Origin: Stagnimonas sp.
GTDB taxonomy: Bacteria > Pseudomonadota > Gammaproteobacteria > Nevskiales > Nevskiaceae
NCBI GenBank assembly: GCA_030652575.1
Contig: JAUSQI010000123.1
Span: 1-64,000 of the forward strand
Direction of reading: 5' to 3'
DNA: 64,000 bases
The notes under the pieces were generated by a model that was not told the DNA's origin, ran no database searches, and saw nothing but the letters and a program-made list of their open reading frames with translations. The position numbers were made by a program, and so were the translations under genes. Below, one piece after another: positions 36,000 through 53,813 of this stretch (the stretch's first letter is position 1; each line of letters begins with the position of its first letter).

Positions 36000-36569
36000 A
36001 TGCGCGTGATGCTGGTGGACGATGATGCCCATCGATCAGAAATACTAGCTGGCGCTTTGAAAAGTACAGGCCACCACGTCGTTGCCCATTGCCGAACGGT
36101 CGATGATTTATTGGCCGCGACGCGGGCGGCAAAGCCAGACATAGTTTTAATCGACGTTGACTCCCCCGGCCGCGACATGCTGGAGTCGCTCGCACAAATC
36201 AACCTCAACGACCCCATGCCAGTGGCGCTATTCGCGGCGAAGAGCGATGTCGAGAGCATTCGCCGCGCCATGCGGGCAGGGGTCTGCGCCTATGTCGTCG
36301 ATGGTCTCACGCCCACCCGCCTGCAGCCGGTGATGGAGGTCGCCATTGCCCGCTTCGCCGAGTATCAGGCCTTGAAGCGTGAACTGGACGACACCAAGAG
36401 CCGGCTCAGTGACCGCAAGGACATCGACCGCGCCAAGGGGCTGCTGATGGCGCGCCGCAATCTCACCGAGGAGCAGGCTTATGAGCAGTTGCGCAAGGCG
36501 GCGATGAACCGCAATCTCAAGATCGGTGATGCGGCACGTGCCGTGATCGCCGCGGCCGATCTGCTATGA
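36000..36569 (+). CDS. nasT: NasT, ANTAR-domain antiterminator/response regulator
   Basis: This 189-residue protein has an N-terminal receiver-like domain (1-120, with the VDDDA acidic pocket and IDVDSPG) and a C-terminal ANTAR RNA-binding domain (about 130-187, with DIDRAKGLLMARRNLTEEQAYEQLR read as two blocks). NasT proteins bind two-hairpin leaders with hexaloops and prevent termination when nitrate or nitrite frees them from NasS. Two such leaders are present downstream (before nirB and before narK). The nasT stop overlaps the nasS ATG (ATGA), as usual for this pair. Confidence 0.93.
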   Translation: MRVMLVDDDAHRSEILAGALKSTGHHVVAHCRTVDDLLAATRAAKPDIVLIDVDSPGRDMLESLAQINLNDPMPVALFAAKSDVESIRRAMRAGVCAYVVDGLTPTRLQPVMEVAIARFAEYQALKRELDDTKSRLSDRKDIDRAKGLLMARRNLTEEQAYEQLRKAAMNRNLKIGDAARAVIAAADLL

Positions 36570-37726
36570 GCAAGCCCGCACTGGAATGCCCGCAGCTGAC
36601 GCTGGGCGTGATTCCGCTCACCGACTCCGCACCTCTGGTGGTGGCTGAAGCTGCCGGCTTCTTTGCGGCGGAAGGGCTGGATGTTGCACTTGCCACCGTG
36701 CGCTCCTGGGCGGCGATGCGCGACAAGCTGGCCTCGGGGCGCATCGAGGGGGCAACCCTGTTGGCCCCCATGCCACTCGCCGCCGCCTTCGGGCTCGACC
36801 CGGTGGCGACACCCATCCTCACGGTGAAGGCCCTGAGCCAGGGCGGCAGCGGCTTCTGTGTGACACCCGAGCTGCATGCCCGCCTGCTCGAACACGGCGC
36901 CACCCCGCATGCCACACCGCTCGAATGGGCGGCGGCGATGCGCCGGCTGGTGGAGGCCGGACGCGGCAGCCGCACCGCGCCGACGCTGGCGCATGTGTAC
37001 CCGTATTCCACGCACCACTACGAGCTGCGCTACTGGCTGGCGAGTGTCGGCCTGCACCCGGAACTCGACCTCAATCTCGTCACCGTGCCGCCGCCCCTGA
37101 TGGTGCAGCAGCTCGAAGCCGGTCGCATCGACGGCGCCTGGGTGGGCTCGCCCTGGCCCGCACTCGCCGCGGCCCGCGGTGCTGCCACGGTGCTGTTCGA
37201 CAAGCGCCAGTTCTGGAACGGCGGACCGGAGAAAGTCTTCGCCGTCGCCCAGCCCTGGGCTGAGGCGCACCCCGAAACCCTGGCGGCATTGCTGCGGGCC
37301 CTGATCGCCGCTGGCCGCTGGCTGGATGACCCTGCCAACCATGCACAGGCTGCCCACTGGCTGCAGGCCACGCTGATGCCGGATGTATCGCCTGAACTGC
37401 TGGCGCGCGAGCTGAAGACCCTTCGCTTTCACGCCGGGCTGGCCGGCTTCCCCTGGCGTTCCCACAGCCGCTGGCTCTTGGAGCAGATGCGCCGCTGGAA
37501 ACACCTGCCGGCGTCCGCCGATGTGGAACGTGCCGCCGCCAGCTGCCGCTCTGACCTCTACCGCAGCGTGGCGCGCGCGCTGGGCGAGCCGCTGCCACTC
37601 AGCGACGAGAAGCCCGAAGGCGTGCACGACCTGCCATACCTGGTGCCGGGCGAGTCTGGCGCGCTGCAACTGCCGGCCGATCGGATCATGGGCGGTATGA
37701 GCTACGAGGCCACGGGAATGGCATGA
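36566..37726 (+). CDS. nasS: NasS, cytoplasmic nitrate-sensing NrtA/CmpA-like protein
   Basis: This 386-residue protein belongs to the NrtA/CmpA substrate-binding family but has no signal peptide, which is the mark of NasS. It sequesters NasT until it binds nitrate or nitrite. Stretches such as GVIPLTDSAPLVVAEAAGFF and LAHVYPYSTHHYELRYWL (each near family-wide conserved blocks) support this. The ATGA overlap with nasT suits a stoichiometric complex. A sigma-54 type element for the next transcript overlaps the last codons and stop of this gene. Confidence 0.92.
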   Translation: MSKPALECPQLTLGVIPLTDSAPLVVAEAAGFFAAEGLDVALATVRSWAAMRDKLASGRIEGATLLAPMPLAAAFGLDPVATPILTVKALSQGGSGFCVTPELHARLLEHGATPHATPLEWAAAMRRLVEAGRGSRTAPTLAHVYPYSTHHYELRYWLASVGLHPELDLNLVTVPPPLMVQQLEAGRIDGAWVGSPWPALAAARGAATVLFDKRQFWNGGPEKVFAVAQPWAEAHPETLAALLRALIAAGRWLDDPANHAQAAHWLQATLMPDVSPELLARELKTLRFHAGLAGFPWRSHSRWLLEQMRRWKHLPASADVERAAASCRSDLYRSVARALGEPLPLSDEKPEGVHDLPYLVPGESGALQLPADRIMGGMSYEATGMA

Positions 37727-37734
37727 GCATTGCT
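37719..37734 (+). promoter_or_regulatory. Sigma-54 type promoter of nirB
   Basis: TGGCATGAGCATTGCT matches the consensus TGGCACG-N4-TTGCT with one change (T for C). GG and GC are 12 bases apart. It overlaps the nasS stop codon. The expected start, about 12 nt after the -12 GC, falls at the foot of the first ANTAR-target hairpin (37746). Confidence 0.7.
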
Positions 37735-37745
37735 TGAAACAAGCC

Positions 37746-37807
37746 AGCGCCAACGACGGCGCTACCGCGCACCTTCACCGGATGCGCACGAGACAAAGGC
37801 GTCTCGT
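37746..37807 (+). promoter_or_regulatory. NasT (ANTAR) RNA target, two hexaloop hairpins, nirB leader
   Basis: Hairpin 1 pairs AGCGCC (37746-37751) with GGCGCT (37758-37763) around the loop AACGAC. Hairpin 2 pairs ACGAGAC (37788-37794) with GTCTCGT (37801-37807) around AAAGGC. Both stems are perfect, and both hexaloops have A at position 1 and G at position 4, the hallmark of RNAs bound by ANTAR proteins such as NasR, NasT and EutV. The loop and 3' arm of hairpin 2 contain the 5' arm of the following terminator, so NasT binding should block termination. Confidence 0.85.
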
Positions 37808-37853
37808 CCTTGCTGGCTTTGAAAAAAGCCGTGTTGGGGCGAACGCCTTTTTT
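37795..37853 (+). terminator. Conditional terminator in the nirB leader
   Basis: AAAGGCGT (37795-37802) can pair with ACGCCTTT (37843-37850), ending in a T run (37848-37853). The enclosed bases form a small inner hairpin, GGCTTT-GAAA-AAAGCC (37815-37830). The 5' arm overlaps ANTAR hairpin 2, so the two structures exclude each other. It ends 38 bp before nirB. Confidence 0.7.
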
Positions 37854-40794: not shown

Positions 40795-42125
40795 AACCGC
40801 GCCTGATTCTGGTCGGTAACGGCATGGCGGGCGTGCGCACGCTTGAGGAGTTGCTCAAGCGCGCGCCCGGCCAGTACGACATCACCGTGTTCGGCGAAGA
40901 GCCGTACGGCAACTACAACCGCATCCAGCTCTCGCCCGTGCTCGCAGGCGAGAAGACCATCGCACAGATCATCACGCATGCACCGGAGTGGTACGCCGCC
41001 AACGGCATCAAGCTCCTCACCGGCGACGCGGTGGTTGCCATCGACCGCGAGGCGAAAACCGTCACCTCCGCGAAGGGCGTCACCGCAGCGTATGACGTGC
41101 TGCTGCTGGCCACCGGCAGCAAGCCTTTTGTGCTGCCGGTGCCCGGCAAGGAGCTGCCGGGCGTGATCGCCTTCCGCGACATCGCGGACGTGGACTCCAT
41201 GCTGAGCGCGAGCCGCACCTACACCCACGCGGTGGTGATCGGCGGCGGCCTGCTCGGCCTCGAAGCCGCCAATGGTTTGGTGAAGCGCGGCATGACGGTG
41301 AGCGTGGTGCATCTCTCCGACATCATCATGGAGCGCCAGCTCGACAGGCCCGCCGCCGTGCTGCTGCAACGCAGTCTTGAATCGCGCGGCATCAAGTTTC
41401 TGCTGAAAGCGGCAACCGCCGAACTGCTTGGCGAGACGCGCGTCGAAGCCGTGCGTTTCAAGGACGGCCGCGAAGTGCCTGCCGATCTCGTGGTGATGGC
41501 CGCCGGCATCATCCCCAATGCCGCACTCGCCAAGGCGAGCGGGCTGGAGTGCGAGCGTGGCATCGTCGTCGACGACGCACTGCGCAGCAGCGACCCCAGC
41601 ATCTATGCCGTCGGCGAATGCGCCCAGCATCGCAAGATTTGCTATGGGCTGGTCGCACCTCTGTGGGATCAGGCCATCGTCTGCGCCGAGCATCTGGCTG
41701 CGGTTTCGACAGCAGCCTACGAAGGCTCGGTGGTCTCCACCAAGCTCAAGGTGACGGGTATTGATCTGTTCTCCGCCGGCAACTTCCAGGGCGGGGAGGG
41801 CAGCGAGGAGCTGGTCTTCCGAGACCCCAAGCGCGGCATCTATAAAAAGCTGGTTGTGCGCGATGGCCGGCTCGATGGCGCCGTGCTGGTCGGCGATACG
41901 CGCGATGGCGGCTGGTACTACGAGCTGATCCAGCAGAAGGCCCACGTCGGCCACTGGCGCAACAAGCTCGTGTTTGGCCGCAGCTTCTGTGAGCAGCCGC
42001 TTGAGCGACCCGGCGAGGGACCCGCCAACGGCGGGATCGACGGCAACGCGAATGCGGCCAGGCGCCTAGGCAGCACCACGATAGAAAGGCGCAACCCGCC
42101 AGCGCCAGAGGCGCAAGCCGCATGA
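40791..42125 (+). CDS. FAD-dependent reductase, nitrate reductase electron-transfer partner (NasB-like)
   Basis: This 444-residue two-dinucleotide-fold flavoprotein has GNGMAG near residue 9 for FAD, GGGLLGLEAA near 145 for NAD(P)H and VYAVGEC-type IYAVGECAQH near 275. It resembles the N-terminal half of NirB and stand-alone NasB/rubredoxin-reductase-like enzymes. Placed between nirD and nasA with 4-bp overlaps on both sides, it most likely passes electrons from NAD(P)H to NasA. The last about 45 residues are low-complexity and not conserved in appearance. A function independent of NasA cannot be excluded. Confidence 0.82.
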   Translation: MKPRLILVGNGMAGVRTLEELLKRAPGQYDITVFGEEPYGNYNRIQLSPVLAGEKTIAQIITHAPEWYAANGIKLLTGDAVVAIDREAKTVTSAKGVTAAYDVLLLATGSKPFVLPVPGKELPGVIAFRDIADVDSMLSASRTYTHAVVIGGGLLGLEAANGLVKRGMTVSVVHLSDIIMERQLDRPAAVLLQRSLESRGIKFLLKAATAELLGETRVEAVRFKDGREVPADLVVMAAGIIPNAALAKASGLECERGIVVDDALRSSDPSIYAVGECAQHRKICYGLVAPLWDQAIVCAEHLAAVSTAAYEGSVVSTKLKVTGIDLFSAGNFQGGEGSEELVFRDPKRGIYKKLVVRDGRLDGAVLVGDTRDGGWYYELIQQKAHVGHWRNKLVFGRSFCEQPLERPGEGPANGGIDGNANAARRLGSTTIERRNPPAPEAQAA

Positions 42126-44893
42126 GCGATGGTGGTGCGCCTGCACTAAAAACGACCTGCACCACCTGCCCGTACTGCGGCGTGGGCTGCGGCGTGCTCG
42201 CCACGCCCAAGCCGGATGGCACGGTCGAGATTGCGGGTGACCCTGCGCATGGCGCGAACTTGGGGCGGCTCTGCGTCAAGGGTTCGGCACTGGGCGAAAC
42301 GGTGGGACTCGAAGACCGCCTGCTGTATCCGATGCTGCACCGCGAAGGTGTGGCACAGCGTGCGAGCTGGGACGAGGCGCTCGCGCAGGTCGCCGAAGGC
42401 TTCAAAAAAACCATCGCCGAACATGGCCCCGATGCGGTGGCCTTCTATGTCTCCGGCCAGCTGCTCACCGAGGACTACTACGTCGCCAACAAGCTGATGA
42501 AGGGCTACATCGGCTCGGCGAACATCGACACCAATTCACGGCTCTGCATGTCCTCCGCCGTCGCCGGCCACAAGCGCGCCTTCGGCGAAGACCTGGTGCC
42601 GGGCTGCTACGAAGATTTCGAGGAGGCCGACCTCGTCGTGCTGGTCGGCAGCAACACCGCCTGGTGCCATCCGGTGCTGTTCCAGCGCTTGGTCGCGGCC
42701 AAGAAGGCGCGGCCGGAAATGCAGATCGTGGTGATCGACCCCCGCCACACCGCCACCTGCGAACTCGCCGACCTGCACCTGCCGCTCGCACCCGGCAGCG
42801 ACGTGCGCCTGTTCAACGGCCTGCTCGCCTGGCTGCACGAACATGGCGTGATGGATGCCGAGTTCGTCGAAGCGCATACCGAAGGTGCCGACAAGGCCGT
42901 TGCCCTCGCTTTGCAAACGGGCGGCTCGCTCGCGCATGTGGCCAAGGCCTGCAAGCTGTCGGAAGAAAAGCTGCGTCAGTTCTACGCGCTGTGGGCGCGC
43001 ACCGAAAAGGTGGTTACGGCCTTTTCGCAGGGTGTGAACCAGTCGAGCAGCGGCACCGACAAGGTCAACGCCATCATCAACTGCCACCTCTACACGGGGC
43101 GCATCGGCAAGCCGGGTGCCACGCCCTTTTCCATCACCGGCCAGCCCAATGCGATGGGTGGTCGCGAGGTGGGCGGGCTGGCCAACATGCTCGCGGCGCA
43201 CCTTGACATCGCAAGCCCAGAGCACCGGGCGCTGGTGCAAGACTTCTGGCAGTCGCCGGTGATTGCCGATCAGCAGGGCTTGAAGGCGGTCGATCTGTTC
43301 GAGGCGATTCACAGCGGCAAGGTGAAGGCGGTGTGGATCATGGCGACCAACCCGGTGGTCTCGCTGCCCGACGCTGATCGCGTGCGAGAGGCGTTGCTGA
43401 AATGCCCGCTCGTGGTGGTGAGCGAAGTGATGGCCCGCACCGACACCGCCGACCTGGCCCATGTGCTGCTGCCGGCGCTGGCCTGGGGCGAGAAGGACGG
43501 CAGCGTCACCAACAGCGACCGTCGCATCTCGCGCCAGCGCGCCTTTCTGCCCGTACCGGGCGAGGCGAAAGCCGACTGGTGGGCGCTGGCTGAAGTTGGC
43601 AAGCGCATGAGTTTCGGCGAGAGCTTCGAGTTCAGCAGCGCACACGAAATCTTTGTCGAGCACGCGGCACTGACGGCATACGGAAACGCGGGGGCAGGGG
43701 GCAGGGGACAGGGTATGGAGGCGGTGCCGCGCATGCTCAATCTCGCCGGACTCGTGCCCCTCACTGCGGAGGCCTACGACGATCTGCAACCGCTGCAATG
43801 GCCGGTGTCGCAAGTCCCCATCCCCCATCCCCCATCCCCCATCCCCGCTTCTCGTCTCTTCAGCGATGGCAGATTCGCCCACGCCGATGGTCGTGCCCGC
43901 CTGCTGCCGCTGCTGCCGCGCGACCCGGTCAACAAGATCAACGACGACTGGCCGCTGGTGCTCAACACCGGCCGCGTGCGCGACCACTGGCACACGATGA
44001 CGCGTACCGGCAAGTCGCCCAAGCTCGCCGATCACACCAGCGAACCCTTCGTCGAAATCCACCCGCAGGATGCGATGGGCTGGGGCGTGCAGAACGACCG
44101 CCTCGCGCGTGTCGTCACCGCTTGGGGCAGCTGCGTGGTGCGCGTGCGCACCACCAGCGCCGTCGCACGCCGTCAGCTGTTCGTGCCCATCCACTGGAAC
44201 GGCACCACCGCCTCCGATGCGCGCGTGGGCAGCCTGGTGAACCCGGTGGTCGACCCCATTTCCGGCGAGCCGGAGTTCAAGCACACGCCCGCGCGCATCG
44301 AGCCCTTCTTCGTGCAGTGGTACGGCTTCGTGCTCAGCCGCCAGCCGCTCAATGAAACGACGCTGCGCACCCTGCCGCATCTCGCCTGGTGGACGCGCGT
44401 GCAGGGCACGCAGTTCATCCGCACCGAGTTCGCCGGCCGCGGCGAGCCTGCGGATTGGAGCACTTGGGCGCATCAGTTGCTGGGTGCATCGAGCGACGAT
44501 CCGGACTGGCTCGACACCCGCGATGCGAGCGAGGGCCTGTATCGCGGCGCACTGATCGAGGGCGAATGCTTAAGCGCCTGCGTGTTCCTTTCACCGCGCC
44601 CAGAAGACCTGCCCGCACGCCGCTGGCTCAGTGGCCTGTTCGCGCAAGAATCATTGAGTGACATGGATCGCATGTCCCTGCTCGCAGGCCAGGCGGCGAC
44701 ACCGGGCGTGGATGCGGGGGCAACGATCTGCTCCTGCTTCGGCATCGGCCGCAACCCGATTGCCGCCGCCATCCGCGAAGGCTGCGCCACACCCGAAGCG
44801 CTGGGCGCGAAGCTCAAGTGCGGTACCAACTGCGGCAGCTGCGTGCCGGAGTTGCGGCAGTTGATTGCGCTGGTCAAGGCCGAGCGTCAGTAG
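42122..44893 (+). CDS. nasA: NasA, assimilatory nitrate reductase catalytic subunit
   Basis: This 923-residue molybdopterin enzyme reduces nitrate to nitrite in the cytoplasm. The N-terminal [4Fe-4S] ligands are in CPYCGVGC (16-23) plus Cys51. The Mo-bis-MGD core follows, with the likely Mo-ligand Cys in NSRLCMSSA, and a C-terminal BFD-like [2Fe-2S] domain has CSCFG and CGTNCGSC. No Tat signal is present, as expected for the assimilatory type. Two unusual insertions are encoded by homopolymer-rich repeats: AGAGGRGQG near 523-531 and VPIPHPPSPIP near 565-575. It starts with an ATGA overlap. Confidence 0.95.
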   Translation: MSDGGAPALKTTCTTCPYCGVGCGVLATPKPDGTVEIAGDPAHGANLGRLCVKGSALGETVGLEDRLLYPMLHREGVAQRASWDEALAQVAEGFKKTIAEHGPDAVAFYVSGQLLTEDYYVANKLMKGYIGSANIDTNSRLCMSSAVAGHKRAFGEDLVPGCYEDFEEADLVVLVGSNTAWCHPVLFQRLVAAKKARPEMQIVVIDPRHTATCELADLHLPLAPGSDVRLFNGLLAWLHEHGVMDAEFVEAHTEGADKAVALALQTGGSLAHVAKACKLSEEKLRQFYALWARTEKVVTAFSQGVNQSSSGTDKVNAIINCHLYTGRIGKPGATPFSITGQPNAMGGREVGGLANMLAAHLDIASPEHRALVQDFWQSPVIADQQGLKAVDLFEAIHSGKVKAVWIMATNPVVSLPDADRVREALLKCPLVVVSEVMARTDTADLAHVLLPALAWGEKDGSVTNSDRRISRQRAFLPVPGEAKADWWALAEVGKRMSFGESFEFSSAHEIFVEHAALTAYGNAGAGGRGQGMEAVPRMLNLAGLVPLTAEAYDDLQPLQWPVSQVPIPHPPSPIPASRLFSDGRFAHADGRARLLPLLPRDPVNKINDDWPLVLNTGRVRDHWHTMTRTGKSPKLADHTSEPFVEIHPQDAMGWGVQNDRLARVVTAWGSCVVRVRTTSAVARRQLFVPIHWNGTTASDARVGSLVNPVVDPISGEPEFKHTPARIEPFFVQWYGFVLSRQPLNETTLRTLPHLAWWTRVQGTQFIRTEFAGRGEPADWSTWAHQLLGASSDDPDWLDTRDASEGLYRGALIEGECLSACVFLSPRPEDLPARRWLSGLFAQESLSDMDRMSLLAGQAATPGVDAGATICSCFGIGRNPIAAAIREGCATPEALGAKLKCGTNCGSCVPELRQLIALVKAERQ
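43690..43713 (+). repeat. G-run repeat inside nasA (coding-strand quadruplex pattern)
   Basis: Four G-runs (5, 5, 4 and 3 bases) are separated by CA, CA and ACA. They stay in frame and encode Gly/Ala/Arg-rich residues not expected in NasA. The G-runs are on the coding strand, so the mRNA itself could fold as a quadruplex. Confidence 0.75.
43816..43846 (+). repeat. Perfect CCCCCAT heptamer array inside nasA
   Basis: Five C-runs separated by AT form a nearly perfect heptamer array, translated as a run of Pro with Ile, His and Ser. A three-unit period (21 bp) keeps the frame. The template strand carries five G-runs with 2-nt loops. The unit matches that in nirB, 5 kb away. Confidence 0.8.
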
Positions 44894-44909
44894 TGGCACG
44901 GCCATTGCT
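44894..44909 (+). promoter_or_regulatory. Sigma-54 promoter of narK-type gene
   Basis: TGGCACGGCCATTGCT, immediately after the nasA stop codon, is an exact match to the sigma-54 consensus TGGCACG-N4-TTGCT. The predicted start lies at about 44920, where the first ANTAR-target hairpin begins. This implies nitrogen-limitation (NtrC) control. Confidence 0.82.
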
Positions 44910-44920
44910 TTAGTGAATAT

Positions 44921-44962
44921 GTGGCCAACGGCGGTCACGGAAGCGCGAGCAAAGCAGCTCGC
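44921..44962 (+). promoter_or_regulatory. NasT (ANTAR) RNA target, two hexaloop hairpins, narK leader
   Basis: Hairpin 1 pairs GTGGCC (44921-44926) with GGTCAC (44933-44938), with one G-U pair, around AACGGC. Hairpin 2 pairs GCGAGC (44945-44950) with GCTCGC (44957-44962) around AAAGCA. Both hexaloops again have A1 and G4. The linker is only 6 nt, against 24 nt in the nirB leader. No T-tract terminator lies in the 31 nt between hairpin 2 and the ATG, so the mode of control may differ. Confidence 0.75.
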
Positions 44963-44993
44963 TTAAGAACTCCACCTCTTCAAGGGACCGCCA

Positions 44994-46352
44994 ATGAAAT
45001 CCGCCAAAGCCACAAAAATCGATCTATTCAGTTTTGCCACGCCCCAGATGCGCGCCTTCCACATGACGTGGGCGGCGTTCTTCGTCTGCTTCTTCGCGTG
45101 GTTTGCCATCGCCCCGCTCATGCCCGCGATCAAGGGCGAATTCGGGTTCACCAAAGACCAGATCGCCAACATGAACATCGCGGCCGTGGCCGTGACCATT
45201 CTGGTGCGCCTGCTCATCGGGCCGCTGTGCGACAAGTTTGGCCCGCGCCGCGCCTACACTGGGTTGCTCGCCTTTGGTGCGCTGCCAGTGCTCGGCATCG
45301 CCTTTGCGCAGACCTATGAAGCCTTCCTGTTCCTGCGCCTTTGCATCGGTGCGATTGGTGCGAGCTTCGTCATCACGCAGTACCACACGAGCGTGATGTT
45401 CGCGCCCAATGTGGTGGGCACCGCCAACGCCGCCGCTGCGGGTTGGGGCAACGCCGGTGGTGGTGCCACGCAAACACTGATGCCGCTCATCCTCGCCGCC
45501 ATTCTCTATTTCGGTGCAGATGCCGCCTTCGGTTGGCGCATCGCCCTCATCGTGCCGGGCGTGCTCATGCTGCTGATGGCCGTGGCCTACTGGCGTTACA
45601 CGCAGGACACGCCAGAAGGCGACATTGTCGATCTGCGCGCGCAGGGCCGTGCGCCGGAGAGTGCGAAGAAGGGCGGCTGGAAAAACTTCAAGCGCGCGGC
45701 CGGCAACTATCGCGTGTGGCTGCTGTTCGTCACTTACGCGGCCTGCTTCGGCGTGGAGATCACCATCCACAACATCGCGGCGCTCTACTACACGGATCGT
45801 TTCCAGCTGGACCTGAAAACGGCGGGCCTGGCCGCCGGCAGCTTCGGCCTGCTGGCACTGTTCGCACGCGCACTCGGCGGCATCGTGTCGGATCGCGTCG
45901 CCAGGACCAAGGGCCTCGATGGCCGCAGTAAGTTGCTGTTCGCGCTCATCGTCGGCGAGGGCGTTGGCCTGCTGCTGTGGGCGGGCAGCGACTCGCTCGC
46001 GCTGGCCATCCCGATGATGCTGATCTTCGGTCTGTTCACCCACATGGCCTGCGGTGCCACCTACAGCCTCGTGCCCTTCATCGACCGTGATGCGCTCGGC
46101 GGTGTCGCGGGCATCATCGGTGCGGGCGGCAATGTCGGCGCGGTGGCGGCGGGCTTCCTGATGAAGGGCTCCGGGTCAATCGAATCGGGCCTGCATATCA
46201 TGGGCATCTGCGTACTCATCGCAGCAATCGCAGCGATTGGCGTGCGCTTCACCGCCGAGCACAAGGCGCGCGAGGCCAAGCTCTATGAGGATGCCTTGAA
46301 CGAGCGCGCGGCTGCCGCTCGCACGCAGCTCTCCACGCCGCTCGCCGCCTAA
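44994..46352 (+). CDS. MFS nitrate/nitrite transporter (NNP family)
   Basis: This 452-residue, 12-segment transporter has the nitrate-nitrite porter signature GWGNAGGGATQTLMP (near 145-160) and a second Gly-rich copy, GIIGAGGNVGAVAAG, near 375. It imports nitrate for the reductase encoded upstream. The ATG at 44994 has AGGGA at 8 nt. It is transcribed from its own sigma-54 type element with an ANTAR-type leader, or by readthrough from nasA. It resembles NarK/NasA-type transporters; without a tree the exact subgroup is not assigned. Confidence 0.92.
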   Translation: MKSAKATKIDLFSFATPQMRAFHMTWAAFFVCFFAWFAIAPLMPAIKGEFGFTKDQIANMNIAAVAVTILVRLLIGPLCDKFGPRRAYTGLLAFGALPVLGIAFAQTYEAFLFLRLCIGAIGASFVITQYHTSVMFAPNVVGTANAAAAGWGNAGGGATQTLMPLILAAILYFGADAAFGWRIALIVPGVLMLLMAVAYWRYTQDTPEGDIVDLRAQGRAPESAKKGGWKNFKRAAGNYRVWLLFVTYAACFGVEITIHNIAALYYTDRFQLDLKTAGLAAGSFGLLALFARALGGIVSDRVARTKGLDGRSKLLFALIVGEGVGLLLWAGSDSLALAIPMMLIFGLFTHMACGATYSLVPFIDRDALGGVAGIIGAGGNVGAVAAGFLMKGSGSIESGLHIMGICVLIAAIAAIGVRFTAEHKAREAKLYEDALNERAAAARTQLSTPLAA

Positions 46353-46362
46353 AGGAGACGCC

Positions 46363-47628
46363 ATGAACCGTCTCACTCTGGCCCTCGCGGCCACGGCCTT
46401 CTGCGGCCTGTCGTCTGCCGCTTCGCTGCCTGATGCGCTGTTGCAAGGCACACCGACACTCGATCTGCGACTGCGGTACGAGTCCGTCGAGCAGGGCAAC
46501 CTTGCCAGCGATGCCCATGCCACCACCCTGCGCGGCGCGCTCGGCTACACCACCAAGCCCTGGCAGGGCTTTGATGCGCGTGCGGAGTTGGAGGGCGTGA
46601 TCGCTGCCAACAGCGATCTCTACAACTCCACCGGCAATGGCATCGGCAATCGCCCGGTGGTGGCAGACCCCGAAACGCTCGGGTTCAATCAGGCCTGGCT
46701 GCGCTACACCTTACCCAACAAGATCAGCCTCACGGCGGGCCGCCAGCGCCTCAGCTTCGACAACGCGCGCTTCATCGGCACCGTCGGCTGGCGGCAGGAC
46801 GAGCAGACCTACGATGGCGCGCTGCTCGTCGCACCACTGGGCAAGGACTTCGTGGCGCAGCTCGCGCACATCGGCAACGTCAACAGCTTCCGCCGCTTCG
46901 GGCCCAACCTCATCGCCGCCTGCGCGGTGAGCGGACCTTGCTCGGCAGACTTGAGCCTGAACGGGCAGGCGCTCAATCTCGCCTACAGCAGCAGCCCGAA
47001 ACTGAAGCTCGTCGGCTACAGCTACTGGCTGGATTTCACGGCCAACACTGCCGCCCGGCGCGACACCCGCACCCTCGGTGTGCGCGCCACGGGCCGCTGG
47101 CCGATGACGGCAGGCAAGGAGGCCTTAAGCCTCGACTACACGCTCGAAGCCGCCGAGCAGCAACGCTATGGTGATTCGCCACAAAGTGTCGATGCCGAGT
47201 ATCGGCTGGCAGAGCTGGGCCTGAGCCAGGGCGTGTTCAATGGCAAGCTGGGCTACGAGGTGCTGGGCGGCGATGGCATCTATGGCTTCCAGACGCCGCT
47301 CGCCTCGCTGCATGCCTTTCAGGGCTGGGCAGATGTCTTCCTCGCCACGCCGGCCATGGGCATCCGCGATGCCTACGTGCAGGTGGGCGGCACGCTCGCC
47401 AAAACCGCGCTGCAAGCCAGCTACCACGACTACAAGGCCGACTCGCGCAATCTCGACTACGGCAAGGAGATCAACGTGCAGGCCACGCGTCCGTTGGTCC
47501 CCTTGTTCGGCAAGCCGCTGACACTGGGTTTGAAGGCGGCGTTCTACGAGGCCGAAGGTTTTCCGGTGGCCGCTGGCAAGCCCTACGACACCACTAAACT
47601 ATGGGCATGGCTGCAATACAAACTCTGA
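46363..47628 (+). CDS. Outer-membrane porin (alginate-export-like)
   Basis: This 421-residue exported protein has a signal peptide (about 1-20, ending SSAAS), many amphipathic beta-strands and a C-terminal LQYKL, as in outer-membrane barrels. Blocks such as TAGRQRLSFDNARFIG resemble the alginate-export/AlgE-like porin family often linked to nitrate operons. It starts 10 bp after the transporter stop behind AAGGAGA, so it is co-transcribed and probably aids nitrate or nitrite entry (inference). Its 3' end overlaps mobA by 28 bp. Confidence 0.8.
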   Translation: MNRLTLALAATAFCGLSSAASLPDALLQGTPTLDLRLRYESVEQGNLASDAHATTLRGALGYTTKPWQGFDARAELEGVIAANSDLYNSTGNGIGNRPVVADPETLGFNQAWLRYTLPNKISLTAGRQRLSFDNARFIGTVGWRQDEQTYDGALLVAPLGKDFVAQLAHIGNVNSFRRFGPNLIAACAVSGPCSADLSLNGQALNLAYSSSPKLKLVGYSYWLDFTANTAARRDTRTLGVRATGRWPMTAGKEALSLDYTLEAAEQQRYGDSPQSVDAEYRLAELGLSQGVFNGKLGYEVLGGDGIYGFQTPLASLHAFQGWADVFLATPAMGIRDAYVQVGGTLAKTALQASYHDYKADSRNLDYGKEINVQATRPLVPLFGKPLTLGLKAAFYEAEGFPVAAGKPYDTTKLWAWLQYKL

Positions 47629-48194
47629 GTCTCCACGCGCAGATCACCGGCGGCATCCTCGCGGGCGGCGAGGGCCGTCGGCTGGCCGGGGCGGACAAGG
47701 GTCTGGTGCGCTGGCGGGGGCAGTCGCTGGTGCAGCATGTGCTCACCGCACTCAAGCCGCAGACGGCCGCACAGCGCATCAGCGCCAACCGCAATCTCGA
47801 TGTCTACGCCTGCTTCGGCGCGCCTGTGGTGCGCGATGGCGATGGTAGCGGTCCGCTCGCAGGCTTGGCCGCATTGCTCGCCGCCACCGAAACCGACTGG
47901 CTGCTGTGCGTGCCCTGCGATGCGCCGCTGCTGCCGGCTGATCTGGCGCACCGCCTGCTGGCAAGAGCGGTGGAAACCCATGCATTGGCGAGCTTTCTGC
48001 ACGATGGAGAACGCGCCCATCCCACCTTCTGCCTCGTACATCGCAGCCTCACCGCCAGCGCCCACGAGGCCGCTGTGCAGAGCCTGGGCCTGGGCGCATG
48101 GCTGAATGCGCGAGGTGCAGTACCCTTGGCGGCGATGGCCCCGCTCAATCTCAACACCGCCGAAGACTTCGCTGCACTGGACGCTGCGCCATGA
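47601..48194 (+). CDS. mobA: MobA, molybdenum cofactor guanylyltransferase
   Basis: This 197-residue nucleotidyltransferase adds GMP to molybdopterin to make the MGD cofactor that NasA needs. The signature GGILAGGEGRRLAGADKGL (17-35) binds GTP, and DAPLLP matches the conserved metal-binding block. Two ATGs are close together (47601 and 47607); both lie inside the end of the porin gene. The stop overlaps moaA as ATGA. Confidence 0.92.
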   Translation: MGMAAIQTLSLHAQITGGILAGGEGRRLAGADKGLVRWRGQSLVQHVLTALKPQTAAQRISANRNLDVYACFGAPVVRDGDGSGPLAGLAALLAATETDWLLCVPCDAPLLPADLAHRLLARAVETHALASFLHDGERAHPTFCLVHRSLTASAHEAAVQSLGLGAWLNARGAVPLAAMAPLNLNTAEDFAALDAAP

Positions 48195-49183
48195 CTGGCC
48201 CGGCGCCCACGGCGGTGGTGGACGCGCGTGGCCGCATCAAACGCAAGCTGCGCGTCTCGCTCACCGACCGCTGCAACCTGCGCTGCCACTACTGCATGCC
48301 GGAGCATCCACGCTGGCTGCCGCGTGCCGAGCTGATGAGCAATGCCGAGCTGCTGAGACTGGTCGGCCTTTTCGTGCGCACGCTGGGCATCACCGAGCTG
48401 CGCCTCACCGGCGGCGAGCCGCTGCTGCGTGCCGATGTACCCGCACTCGTGAGCGAACTCGGTGCGCTGCGCAGCGAGGGCTTGCAGCGTATCGCCCTCA
48501 CCAGCAATGGCGTGCGGCTTGCACCCGTCGCGCAGGCCTTGCTCGATGCGGGGCTGGACGATCTCAACGTCAGCCTCGACTCGATCACGCCCGCTGTCTT
48601 CACGGCGCTGACGCGCGGCCAGATCGAGCCGGTGTTGCAGGGCATCGAGGCCGCGATGGCGGCGGGCCTGCCGCTCAAGCTCAACAGCGTCGTCATCAAG
48701 GGTGCCAACGAGGGCGAGGTGCTGCCGCTGATGCAGTGGGCCAAGGCGCGCGGGTTGCCGCTGCGCTTCATCGAGTTCATGCCGCTCGATGGCCGCCAGG
48801 GCTGGGCGAACGACAAGGTGGTGACCGAGGACGAAATCATCGCCCACTTGGCACCTCACCATCGCCTCGAAAAACTGCCGCGCAGCAGCGATCCGGCGAC
48901 TTATTACCGCGTCGATGGCGATTACCGCATTGGTGTGATCAGCACCATCAGCAAGCCCTTCTGCGCCAGCTGTGACCGCTTGCGGCTGGATGCGCGCGGC
49001 CGGCTCTATACCTGCCTGTTCTCGGCCGTCGAGACTGACCTGCTCACGCCGCTGCGTGCCGGTGCGAGCGATGCCGAGCTGCTGGCGCTGATCCGCACGG
49101 CGGTGTGGAACAAGCCCGCTGGTTATGCCGAACAGCCGGGCTATGTCGAGCGGCCCATCACCATGCATCACCTGGGTGGATGA
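48191..49183 (+). CDS. moaA: MoaA, GTP 3',8-cyclase
   Basis: This 330-residue radical-SAM enzyme performs the first step of molybdopterin synthesis from GTP. The N-terminal cluster ligands are in DRCNLRCHYCMP, the C-terminal cluster in FCASCDRLRLDARGRLYTCL, and the protein ends HHLGG with the catalytic Gly-Gly tail. It is coupled to mobA by ATGA and lies directly before moaD. Confidence 0.95.
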   Translation: MTGPAPTAVVDARGRIKRKLRVSLTDRCNLRCHYCMPEHPRWLPRAELMSNAELLRLVGLFVRTLGITELRLTGGEPLLRADVPALVSELGALRSEGLQRIALTSNGVRLAPVAQALLDAGLDDLNVSLDSITPAVFTALTRGQIEPVLQGIEAAMAAGLPLKLNSVVIKGANEGEVLPLMQWAKARGLPLRFIEFMPLDGRQGWANDKVVTEDEIIAHLAPHHRLEKLPRSSDPATYYRVDGDYRIGVISTISKPFCASCDRLRLDARGRLYTCLFSAVETDLLTPLRAGASDAELLALIRTAVWNKPAGYAEQPGYVERPITMHHLGG

Positions 49184-49187
49184 GCGC

Positions 49188-49433
49188 GTGCAAGTGACGG
49201 TGGAGTGCTGTGGTGTCGCCAGCCGCATCGCGGGGGCAGAGCGCCTCGCCGTGGCGCTGCCCGAGGCGGCCACGGTGCTCGATCTGTTCGAAGTGCTCGC
49301 CGAACGCTCGACCGAGATGGCCGAGCTGCTCAGCCGGTGCGCCTGTGCGCGCGGCGATGCCATCGTGCCGCGCGGCACGGTGCTGGCCGATGGCGACGAG
49401 CTGGCCGTGCTGCCGCCAGTCGCCGGAGGTTGA
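49188..49433 (+). CDS. moaD: MoaD, molybdopterin synthase small (sulfur-carrier) subunit
   Basis: This 81-residue ubiquitin-fold protein ends VAGG, the Gly-Gly that is adenylated and thiocarboxylated. The start is inferred as GTG 49188 (MQVTVECCGVASRIAG), which gives the usual length with GGTGG upstream; GTG 49176, overlapping the moaA stop, is an alternative. It lies 1 bp before moaE, its partner subunit. Confidence 0.85.
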   Translation: MQVTVECCGVASRIAGAERLAVALPEAATVLDLFEVLAERSTEMAELLSRCACARGDAIVPRGTVLADGDELAVLPPVAGG

Positions 49434-49434
49434 G

Positions 49435-49935
49435 ATGCAGCAGCAGGACACGCCGCGCATCCAGTCCACGCCGCTGTCGCTCGATGCGCTGCTGGCGCAC
49501 ACCGAGCGGGCCGACTGCGGCGCGCTCGCCATCTTCGCCGGCACCGTGCGCGACCACCACGAGGGCCGCGCGGTGCGCTCGCTCACCTACTCGTCCTACG
49601 CGCGCGTCGCTGAAAAACTCATCCGCGACATCGAGACCGAGATCGCTGCGCGCTTCCACGTGCCGGTGTGCCGGGCCGTGCATCGTGTGGGCGCACTCGC
49701 CATCGGCGAGACCGCCATCCTCGCCATCGCGCGCGGTGCGCATCGTGCCGAGACCTTCGCCGCCATGCAGGCGCTGGTCGAGGCGGTGAAGCACCGCGTG
49801 CCGATCTGGAAGGAAGAGTTCTACGCCGACGGCTCCAGCGCCTTCGTCAACGGCTGCACCCTGGTCGCACCGGAAGATCTGCCACCCGCTGAATCGCGCC
49901 TGCACTGCACGCCGACACAGAGCATCGCCCCATGA
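49435..49935 (+). CDS. moaE: MoaE, molybdopterin synthase catalytic subunit
   Basis: This 166-residue subunit transfers sulfur from MoaD to precursor Z. Family landmarks are CGALAIFAGTVRDHHEGR, HRVGALAIGETAI and the catalytic lysine context VPIWKEEFYADG. The start ATG is 1 bp after moaD and the stop overlaps the moaC-moaB fusion (ATGA). Confidence 0.94.
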   Translation: MQQQDTPRIQSTPLSLDALLAHTERADCGALAIFAGTVRDHHEGRAVRSLTYSSYARVAEKLIRDIETEIAARFHVPVCRAVHRVGALAIGETAILAIARGAHRAETFAAMQALVEAVKHRVPIWKEEFYADGSSAFVNGCTLVAPEDLPPAESRLHCTPTQSIAP

Positions 49936-50861
49936 AAGACATCACCCTGAAACCACCCAGCCTGCGCAGTGCCACGGCTGAGGGCCGCGTGCAGCTCTCG
50001 GCCACTGGCCTGGCGATGATTGCGGAGGGCCGCGTCGACAAGGGCAATGTCACGGAGTGCGCGCGCATTGCGGGCCTCATGGCCGTGAAGCGCACCAGCG
50101 ACTGGCTGCCGCACTGCCATCCCATCCCCATCCTCGACGCCGAGCTGCGCTTCACGCTGGAAGAAAGCGCACTCCTCATCGAAGCCAAGGTGCGCACCAT
50201 CGCCTCGACCGGCGTGGAGATGGAAGCACTAACGGCCGTGAGTGCAGCCGCACTCACCGTCTACGACATGATGAAGCCGCATGTGCCGGCCGCCGAGATG
50301 CGTATCGATGGCATTCACCTCAAGGAGAAGACCGGCGGCAAGTCCGACTTCGCGCGCACGGTCAACGGTGCAACCGCCGCCGTGCTGGTGATGTCCGACA
50401 CGGTGGCGGCGGGTCGCAAGCCCGACACCGCCGGCAAGTCGGTGGCCGATGGTCTCGCCAAGGCGGGCTTCACCATCGCCGCCTACGAGGTGATGCCGGA
50501 CGAACCCGTGCAGATTGCCGCGCGCGTCTCGCACTGGCTGTCCGCGAGCGCGGCCCTGATCGTCACCGTCGGTGGCACGGGTGTGGGGCCGCGCGACAAG
50601 ACCATCGAGGCCGTACGCCCGCTGCTGGTCACCGAGTTGCCGGGCCTGATGGAAGCCGCGCGCAACTTCGGCCAGCAGCGCACGCCCTACGCCATGCTCT
50701 CGCGCGGCATCGCCGGCCTGGCGGGGCAGAATTCGGTGGTGATGACCTTTCCCGGCAGCCGCAAGGGCGCGGAGGAATCGCTAGCCGCCGTGCTGCCCGG
50801 CTTGGTACATCTCATCAAGGCTTGCCGCTGGGGACAGCCACACAAAGGGGGCTACACATGA
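49932..50861 (+). CDS. MoaC-MoaB fusion protein
   Basis: This 309-residue protein joins two cofactor enzymes. Residues 1-150 are MoaC (cyclic pyranopterin phosphate synthase; KRTSDWLPHCHPIPI, VRTIASTGVEMEALTAVS and DGIHLKEKTGGKSD regions). Residues about 155-305 are MoaB/MogA-like (molybdopterin adenylyltransferase; VMSDTVAAGRKPDTAG, TVGGTGVGPRDKTIEA). Such MoaCB fusions are known, and couple an early and a late step. The gene overlaps moaE and the TSUP gene by ATGA. Confidence 0.93.
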   Translation: MKDITLKPPSLRSATAEGRVQLSATGLAMIAEGRVDKGNVTECARIAGLMAVKRTSDWLPHCHPIPILDAELRFTLEESALLIEAKVRTIASTGVEMEALTAVSAAALTVYDMMKPHVPAAEMRIDGIHLKEKTGGKSDFARTVNGATAAVLVMSDTVAAGRKPDTAGKSVADGLAKAGFTIAAYEVMPDEPVQIAARVSHWLSASAALIVTVGGTGVGPRDKTIEAVRPLLVTELPGLMEAARNFGQQRTPYAMLSRGIAGLAGQNSVVMTFPGSRKGAEESLAAVLPGLVHLIKACRWGQPHKGGYT

Positions 50862-51601
50862 ACGAGCTTGCCGATACCTTGCCCTGGCTGATCGCGGGTG
50901 TGCTGGTCATCGCGGTGCTGTATTCCAGCGTCGGTCATGCAGGGGCATCGGGCTACATCGCCGTGATGAGCCTGCTCGCGGTCGCCCCAGCCACCATCAA
51001 GCCGGTGGCGCTCATGCTCAATGTCGCGGTCGCCCTCATCGGCACCACGCAGTTCTACCGTGCCGGCCACTTTCGCTGGCCGCTGTTCTGGCCGTTTGCC
51101 GTCGTCGCCGTGCCTGCCGCCGCGCTCGGCGGCTATCTGCAACTGCCCGCCGAGACCTTCAAATTGTTGGTGGGACTGGCCCTGCTGCTCTCTGCCGCCA
51201 ACCTCCTGCTGCGCGCGCCGGCAGACGGCCCGACGCAAGCGCCGCCACTGTTCGTTGCCCTTGCGGTCGGCGGAGTGCTGGGTTTGTTGGCAGGCCTCAC
51301 CGGTACGGGTGGCGGCATCTATCTCACGCCCCTGATGCTGTTTCTTCGTTGGGCGCCGATGCGGCAGGTGGCGGCGGTGTCCGCCCCCTTCATCCTGCTG
51401 AATTCGGCATCAGGACTGGCAGGGCATTTGATGGCTGGCAAAATCGTTCCCGCGCTTACCTGGCCGCTGTTATCGGCGGTGGTTGTTGGTGGGGCGTTGG
51501 GAGCAACCTTGGGCGCGCTGTATCTACCGGTGCCCGTCATCAAGCGCGTATTGGCGCTAGTGCTGCTGATCGCGGCAGTCAAACTGCTCGGGCTGATATG
51601 A
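50858..51601 (+). CDS. TSUP (TauE/SafE) family membrane permease
   Basis: This 247-residue protein has about eight membrane segments in two repeats, each beginning with a Gly-rich turn (YSSVGHAGASGYIAVM and LTGTGGGIYLTPLM), the hallmark of the TauE/SafE anion exporter family. It is embedded between moaCB and moeA with 4-bp overlaps on both sides, so it is certainly co-expressed with cofactor genes. Movement of a sulfur oxyanion, or of molybdate or another anion, is possible; the substrate is not evident. Confidence 0.88.
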   Translation: MNELADTLPWLIAGVLVIAVLYSSVGHAGASGYIAVMSLLAVAPATIKPVALMLNVAVALIGTTQFYRAGHFRWPLFWPFAVVAVPAAALGGYLQLPAETFKLLVGLALLLSAANLLLRAPADGPTQAPPLFVALAVGGVLGLLAGLTGTGGGIYLTPLMLFLRWAPMRQVAAVSAPFILLNSASGLAGHLMAGKIVPALTWPLLSAVVVGGALGATLGALYLPVPVIKRVLALVLLIAAVKLLGLI

Positions 51602-52812
51602 GCTTCGATTCTCCAATGATCTCGGTGGACGAGGCGCTTCGGCGGGTGGTATCCGCCGCGCCGCCGATAGGCTGCGAGAGTCTGCCGTTGGCTGTCGCAC
51701 GCGGTCGCGTGCTGTCCGCAGACGTCTACACGCACCATGCAATGCCGTCTTTCACGCAGAGCGCTGTAGACGGTTACGCAGTCCGGCACGCCGATCTGCA
51801 CGTTTTGCCTTGCACGCTGCCACTGGGGCCGCCGATCGCGGCCCGCGCGCACGCTGAACTGCCGGTGCTCCCCTCGGCCGGCGCGGTGCGCATTCTCACT
51901 GGTGGTTTGCTGCCATACGGGGCCGACACCGTAGTGCGACAGGAACATACCGAACATACCGCCGATGCCGTAAAAATACTGCACGAGGTTGCCGCGGGTG
52001 CAGACATTCGTCATGCCGGTGAAGAGATGCCGCCGGGCGCCCGCTTGGCTGTAGCCGGGCAACTAGTCACCCCAGGATTGATCGGCGCGCTGGCGCTGGC
52101 CGGCGTTGATCAGGTTCCTGTCTGGCGTCTGCCGCGCGTGATCGTGCTGGTGACCGGCGATGAGCTGGTGCCTGCTGGCACATGCCTAAAGCTCGGCCAA
52201 GTCCCGGATGCCAACGGGCCCATGTTGCAGGCCTTTCTCAGCGCGTGGGGCGTGCCGCCACTCCGCATCGAAGCCGTTGCCGACAACCAACCTGCTGTGC
52301 GGAATGCGCTGACACGTGCATTCGCGGACGCAGACTTGGTGCTGACCACCGGCGGTGTCTCGGTTGGCGATCACGACTACGTTCCTGCTGTAGCAGAGGC
52401 GCTTGGGAGCCAACGAGTTCTATGGAAAGTGGCTCAAAAGCCAGGTATGCCGCTATATGTCGCGCGCCACAGAGACACACTGTTGTTCGGTCTGCCGGGC
52501 AATCCCGCCTCGGTGCTTGTAAACCTGTTGGTCTATGTCCGGGCCGCACTCGACAACAAACAGGGCCTTGATCCCCAAAGCCGATGGCATCCCATTTCCA
52601 TGCGCGAACAGCCAAAGCGCGACGCACTCAAAACCCTCTGGCTTAGGGCCATTCATCGGAGCACAGACGAACTGTTGCCCTCAGCACACATTCTGCAGGG
52701 CCAGGCCTCGCACATGCTCGGCAATCTGGCAGAGGCCAATCTACTTTTGCGTGTCCAGCCCCAGTCTCAGTCCATCCCGGGTGGCAACAATTTATGCTGC
52801 GTTATTCAATAG
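51598..52812 (+). CDS. moeA: MoeA, molybdopterin molybdenumtransferase
   Basis: This 404-residue enzyme inserts molybdate into adenylylated molybdopterin. Landmarks are PSFTQSAVDGYAVR (near 43-56), GGLLPYGADTVVRQE, VTGDELVPAG, LTTGGVSVGDHDYV and GLPGNPASVLVN. The start ATG 51598 overlaps the TSUP stop (ATGA); an open frame upstream is not coding. It ends the molybdenum operon. The gene looks slightly less GC-rich than its upstream neighbours. Confidence 0.94.
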   Translation: MSFDSPMISVDEALRRVVSAAPPIGCESLPLAVARGRVLSADVYTHHAMPSFTQSAVDGYAVRHADLHVLPCTLPLGPPIAARAHAELPVLPSAGAVRILTGGLLPYGADTVVRQEHTEHTADAVKILHEVAAGADIRHAGEEMPPGARLAVAGQLVTPGLIGALALAGVDQVPVWRLPRVIVLVTGDELVPAGTCLKLGQVPDANGPMLQAFLSAWGVPPLRIEAVADNQPAVRNALTRAFADADLVLTTGGVSVGDHDYVPAVAEALGSQRVLWKVAQKPGMPLYVARHRDTLLFGLPGNPASVLVNLLVYVRAALDNKQGLDPQSRWHPISMREQPKRDALKTLWLRAIHRSTDELLPSAHILQGQASHMLGNLAEANLLLRVQPQSQSIPGGNNLCCVIQ

Positions 52813-53775: not shown

Positions 53776-53813
53776 GGGGAGGTTTGACGAAAGGGAAATT
53801 AAAGTACGTTAAG
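53776..53813. repeat. Tn3-family 38-bp terminal inverted repeat (tnpA end)
   Basis: The segment begins GGGGAGGTTTGACG and ends TACGTTAAG, exactly 38 bp, the length and boundary pattern (GGGG...TAAG) of Tn3-family ends. It contains the tnpA stop codon. The outer flank is TAGCT, which would be the 5-bp target duplication. The matching end was not found in the window. Confidence 0.85.

Follow-up and report, generated by a model that had tools for sequence, protein, structure and literature searches.

ANTAR proteins are usually taught as transcription antiterminators, and the capability to bind and hold paired hexaloop hairpins is established for these proteins, NasT included. In the leaders controlled by NasT or NasR (Klebsiella nasF, Paracoccus nasA and the nirB leader of the genome studied here), two hairpins with A1/G4 hexaloops precede nitrate assimilation genes, and an intrinsic terminator overlaps, or is mutually exclusive with, the second hairpin (P2). 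The Enterococcus eut leaders bound by EutV (PMC3369931, PMC8934654) share the two A1/G4 hexaloops and a short linker (5–12 nt; PMC3369931) and act by antitermination. It was suggested from sequence that ANTAR matches lacking terminators might control translation (PMC3369931), so a translational ANTAR mode in general is not new. According to PMC8164766 and the mycobacterial study cited there, control has likewise been proposed at translation for actinobacterial ANTAR RNAs, in which the motif overlaps the ribosome-binding site (RBS) and binding is repressive.

Here we analyse a leader before narK in a 64-kb stretch of a Nevskiaceae metagenome-assembled genome (Stagnimonas sp., GCA_030652575.1, contig JAUSQI010000123.1, positions 1–64,000), hereafter the window. 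What is new is a conserved terminator-less class of ANTAR leaders before narK, its contrast with an antitermination leader within one genome, and a competition between the start region and the ANTAR fold. The original prediction had spoken of a less described mode for ANTAR proteins. This wording stands, while "undescribed" would be wrong in view of PMC3369931 and the mycobacterial repression cited in PMC8164766.

The narK leader and its counterpart before nirB

The narK promoter is an exact TGGCAC-N5-TTGCW match (Table 1) and is abutted by the nasA stop codon (ORF end 44893, promoter start 44894). Counted from the -12 GC, transcription is expected to start at about 44920, and P1 would therefore form the extreme 5' end of the narK RNA. 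With two tandem A1/G4 hexaloop hairpins and a short linker (6 nt, within the range of the eut leaders), the leader appears from its sequence to be an ANTAR-target RNA. Between the end of P2 and the narK ATG (44994) lie 31 nt (44963–44993); P2 ends (44962) 20 nt upstream of the Shine-Dalgarno (SD) sequence, and the RBS and start codon are outside the dual hairpin. A pattern scan of 44800–45200 around narK found no terminator-like site. In these respects the leader differs from the NasT/NasR and eut antitermination leaders, which depend on a terminator, and from the actinobacterial RNAs of PMC8164766, since its motif is upstream of the ribosome site and activation is predicted. The promoter TGGCACGGCCATTGCT, the hexaloops AACGGC and AAAGCA, the distance of 31 nt and the lack of a T-tract had all been proposed beforehand and were recovered exactly.

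Table 1. Coordinates of the genes and leader elements in the window
Feature	Position	Strand	Basis
nasT, response-regulator receiver and ANTAR domain	36000..36569	+	PF00072 2.3e-13, PF03861 1.2e-20
nasS, periplasmic-binding-like nitrate/nitrite sensor	36566..37726	+	PF13379 2.6e-66
sigma-54 promoter of nirB leader, TGGCATGAGCATTGCT	37719..37734	+	sequence, scan
nirB leader P1, AGCGCC-AACGAC-GGCGCT	37746..37763	+	sequence, scan
nirB leader P2, CGAGAC-AAAGGC-GTCTCG	37789..37806	+	sequence, scan
nirB leader terminator 3' part, ...CGAACGCC-TTTTTT	37836..37853	+	pattern scan (site 37836-37849, then T's)
nasA, assimilatory nitrate reductase gene	42122..44893	+	NCBIfam NasC/NasA-type matches, 6.5e-133
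sigma-54 promoter of narK, TGGCACGGCCATTGCT	44894..44909	+	sequence, scan
narK leader P1, GTGGCC-AACGGC-GGTCAC, 6 bp, loop A1/G4	44921..44938	+	sequence, scan
predicted OFF helix 5' arm, GGCGGTC (P1 loop and 3' arm)	44930..44936	+	MFE fold
inter-hairpin linker, GGAAGC, 6 nt	44939..44944	+	sequence
narK leader P2, GCGAGC-AAAGCA-GCTCGC, 6 bp, loop A1/G4	44945..44962	+	sequence, scan
Shine-Dalgarno sequence, AAGGGA	44982..44987	+	sequence
predicted OFF helix 3' arm, GACCGCC (over SD end and SD-ATG spacer)	44986..44992	+	MFE fold
narK, NarK-family nitrate/nitrite MFS transporter	44994..46352	+	TIGR00886 4.4e-93

The nirB leader has the same promoter spacing: as originally noted, in each of the two P1 begins at the 13th nucleotide past the -12 GC, which ends at 44908 before narK and at 37733 before nirB. 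It also bears a terminator, whose element ACGCCTTT is complementary to AAAGGCGT of its P2. Its P1–P2 linker (37764–37787) is 24 nt long and holds a small hairpin of its own; this exceeds the 5–12 nt of the eut leaders, and long linkers also occur in many Burkholderiales leaders. The genome has two rpoN genes (G000 C96 and C42) and a single PF03861 match, that of nasT, located in the same cluster. As the sole ANTAR gene of the genome, nasT encodes the only plausible regulator of the narK leader.

Elsewhere in the window, the ORFs 3' of narK (47601–52812) resemble molybdenum cofactor genes when their translations are read, which would suit a nitrate reductase cluster, and a 988-aa ORF on the reverse strand (53809–56775) reads like a Tn3-family transposase.

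Chance expectation and the Rfam narK RNA

The 64 kb contain two pairs of A1/G4 hexaloop hairpins with 6-bp stems and a loop distance of 20–48 nt, precisely in the nirB and narK leaders, against 0.04 expected from first-order Markov shuffles. Both stand behind sigma-54 sites, and none of 100 shuffles produced a sigma-54 site with P1 at the observed spacing. In the 3.4-Mb genome the strict form of the sigma-54 pattern, which ends in TTGCW, has four sites.

A search with Rfam RF03032 ("narK RNA") at a relaxed threshold gave a full-length match (model 1–72) at 44895–44962 with the same promoter-P1-P2 layout. It is a weak one (27.2 bits, E 0.00097 for 141 bases), below the gathering score of 43.2. 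The nirB leader (37720–37805) scored 28.2 bits, and at E ≤ 0.1 the whole genome gave no third match. The RF03032 consensus shows GGCaCA..UUGCU followed by P1 and CGACAAAGACGUCGC, with the P1 hairpin loop AACGGC, and CGAC-AAAGAC-GUCG is drawn unpaired. Judged by its letters, this consensus reads as a sigma-54 -24/-12 promoter and two ANTAR hairpins, P2 being left unpaired. The RF03032 model thus appears to take in promoter DNA. The gammaproteobacterial matches to the family that we inspected mostly have terminators.

Conservation of the hairpins, absence of the terminator

The closest record, a Nevskiaceae metagenome-assembled genome (G001, locus L005) with 94% NarK identity, has a different gene upstream of narK and keeps the leader, including the same P1 and again no T-run terminator; its nirB leader (L290) does have a terminator. 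Within the window genus, G000, G001 and G004 have terminators in their nirB leaders, and in G000 and G001 the narK leader has none.

Upstream-of-narK sequences of about 110 loci, compared by eye, fell into three groups: (i) Burkholderiales leaders in which a T-tract terminator accompanies P1 and P2; (ii) leaders with P1 and P2 and no terminator, in Nevskiaceae (Nevskia, Solimonas, Panacagrimonas, lineages G009/G020 and G028, and the window genus) and Moraxellaceae; and (iii) a few loci (L087, L088, L092, L101, L107) with a sigma-54 promoter near narK and the hairpins absent. In Acinetobacter, the P2 pattern is found in 115 of 119 distinct upstream regions, and in 105 of the 108 leaders parsed, the interval from P2 to the ATG lacks a run of five T. 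The P1 stem covaries there (GC 63, AT 41), and RNAalifold on the Acinetobacter alignment recovered P1 and P2 and nothing else. The proposed layout before narK thus recurs in Acinetobacter (about 110 leaders) and in more than one clade of Nevskiaceae. The A1/G4 loops, whose loss from related leaders would have spoken against function in the original prediction, are conserved in the terminator-less leaders of both. In Nevskiales, P2 ends 24–33 nt before the ATG, so that the motif leaves the ribosome site uncovered. In many Nevskiaceae narK heads its cluster, directly before nirB. A class-wide narK search was too sparse to add any clade, and a plasmid search gave no match.

Several further features of these leaders were observed. 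At the second position of the P2 stem, Acinetobacter leaders never have a standard pair, and the adjacent positions always pair; of 110 distinct leaders, from L146–L251 and the earlier Acinetobacter loci, 100 show C.U and 10 show U.C. In Nevskiaceae this second position is C.A, C.U, U.C, A.C or G.A, whereas leaders of the terminator type pair normally there. The mismatch may keep P2 weak or serve recognition by NasT. The Acinetobacter interval between P2 and SD contains a conserved helix, CUGA/UCAG, around a sequence-variable hairpin. Three Acinetobacter narK copies (L252, L254, L255) are devoid of any sigma-54-ANTAR leader.

Competition between the start region and the ANTAR fold

In the free minimum-free-energy (MFE) fold of the window leader, P1 opens and GGCGGUC pairs with GACCGCC near the AUG (Table 1); P2 stays. 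The free fold of most terminator-less leaders joins P1 or P2 to the start region, the partner being P1 in Nevskia and Panacagrimonas and P2 in Solimonas, G009/G020, G028 and Moraxellaceae. The linker and P2 of one Acinetobacter lineage can together pair with GGCC-AUG-UCUUCAAAUUU, and in lineage A the duplexes AAAUUUG/CAAAUUU, AAGAC/GUCUU and GGCC/GGCC across the AUG are possible. A pairing of CCAATGG (P2) with CCATTGG (SD), present in L006-like Nevskia leaders, was rejected as not conserved in L007, L096 and L102.

As a check for an effect beyond composition, we exchanged the native sequence from -14 to +15 for the start regions of other genes from within the clade, with the pooled start regions of the collected loci as null, and measured the cost of forcing P1 and P2. 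The native start region was costlier in nine of nine clades (Fisher 8.8e-4, Stouffer 6.5e-5), while 31 terminator-type leaders showed no effect (median p 0.57, minimum 0.126). For Acinetobacter leaders collected after the hypothesis had been formed, the median p was 0.048 and 59 of 60 were below 0.5, although these 60 count as few events because they are related; several of the Acinetobacter leaders (e.g. L146, L154) had no swap effect. Eleven lineages combined gave Fisher 5e-5. The statistic was picked after viewing three related ones, a weakness that affects the first set more than the later Acinetobacter set. In the terminator-less class, then, competition with the ANTAR fold is stronger for the native start region than for the start regions of other genes.

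The single window leader, with its 7-bp helix, does not discriminate, since its swap p of 0.062–0.068 compares with 0.244 for its nearest relative L005 and 0.059 for the terminator-bearing window nirB leader, which served as a control. Sequestration of the start region in this leader alone is suggestive, as a predicted fold. The mean unpaired probability of SD and AUG was not significantly lower than with other genes' start regions (median p 0.39), and its change on forcing P1 and P2 was likewise non-significant (median p 0.32); burial of the SD as such is accordingly not claimed. RNAduplex with dinucleotide shuffles supported the window leader (0.04), L059, L044 and L055 only, not most clades, and was dropped as too weak a test.

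A possible NasT-controlled switch and its alternatives

We lean, with some reserve, towards reading the leader (44920–44993) as a NasT-controlled translational switch. The chances appear even for the wider proposal that NasT activates narK translation in Nevskiaceae and Acinetobacter, with P1 and P2 competing against a fold that closes SD and AUG, so that one protein would act at two steps (antitermination at nirB, translation at narK). The RNA would be started by sigma-54 with P1 at its 5' end, as the spacing suggests. In response to nitrate or nitrite NasS would release NasT, which would bind P1 and P2 at their A1/G4 hexaloops and hold both, leaving SD and AUG open for NarK to be made. In the predicted fold without NasT, P1 would open and its segment 44930–44936 would pair with 44986–44992 beside the AUG, lowering initiation. 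In other clades P2, or the P1–P2 linker with P2, would take the role of the window P1. Untranslated transcripts may in addition fall to Rho or decay; in operons headed by narK, this would bring the nir genes under control as well. Of the modes offered in the original prediction (translation, RNA stability or sequestration), the comparative evidence, itself drawn from sequences, favours translation, by way of an alternative fold of the start region; the window leader taken by itself is only suggestive.

Activation as the direction is inferred from the known positive role of NasT. In Bradyrhizobium japonicum, expression of a narK-lacZ fusion requires NasT during aerobic growth on nitrate (PMC4724949). 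The fusions in that study are transcriptional, which counts against the translational reading, and under denitrifying conditions a Bradyrhizobium nasT mutant shows raised narK-bjgb-flp expression (PMC6759348), which counts against activation. The latter result would agree with NasT repressing narK translation, in the way that ANTAR binding is reported to repress translation in mycobacteria (PMC8164766). This we consider highly improbable, as the mycobacterial RNAs, according to the same text, hold the RBS or start inside the motif while P2 in the window ends well ahead of the SD, and the aerobic narK-lacZ result points the opposite way.

NasT could still act on transcription elongation, with the C-rich, G-poor segment CTCCACCTCTTC (44970–44981) after P2 loading Rho (or an unconventional terminator taking its part) and the NasT complex or translation acting as a shield. 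Control of the whole operon would suit the narK-nirB clusters of many relatives, and in Nevskia a conserved CUCACG, with complementarity to the P1 3' arm plus GAG, stands ahead of a pyrimidine tract, similar to a degenerate terminator. We nevertheless regard it as unlikely: the pattern scan detected no terminator-like site, the sequences after P2 diverge strongly between clades, and the start-region competition would be left unexplained. That competition is equally unaccounted for if the NasT-P1-P2 complex at the 5' end merely shields the mRNA from decay, a quite improbable reading. The start of P1 at about +1 of the sigma-54 transcript, a spacing that recurs widely, would agree with such a role, but terminator-type leaders have the same spacing, which thus does not mark out the terminator-less class. 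Finally, the leader could be a remnant that lost its terminator, NasT binding being irrelevant and sigma-54 alone controlling narK, as the group iii loci might suggest. This also seems improbable, given that several terminator-less clades have kept the hexaloops, the stems and the linker length and that the P1 stem of Acinetobacter covaries.

If the translational switch is real, NasT would also be a translation activator, using two mechanisms within one genome, and the Rfam "narK RNA" would acquire a function.
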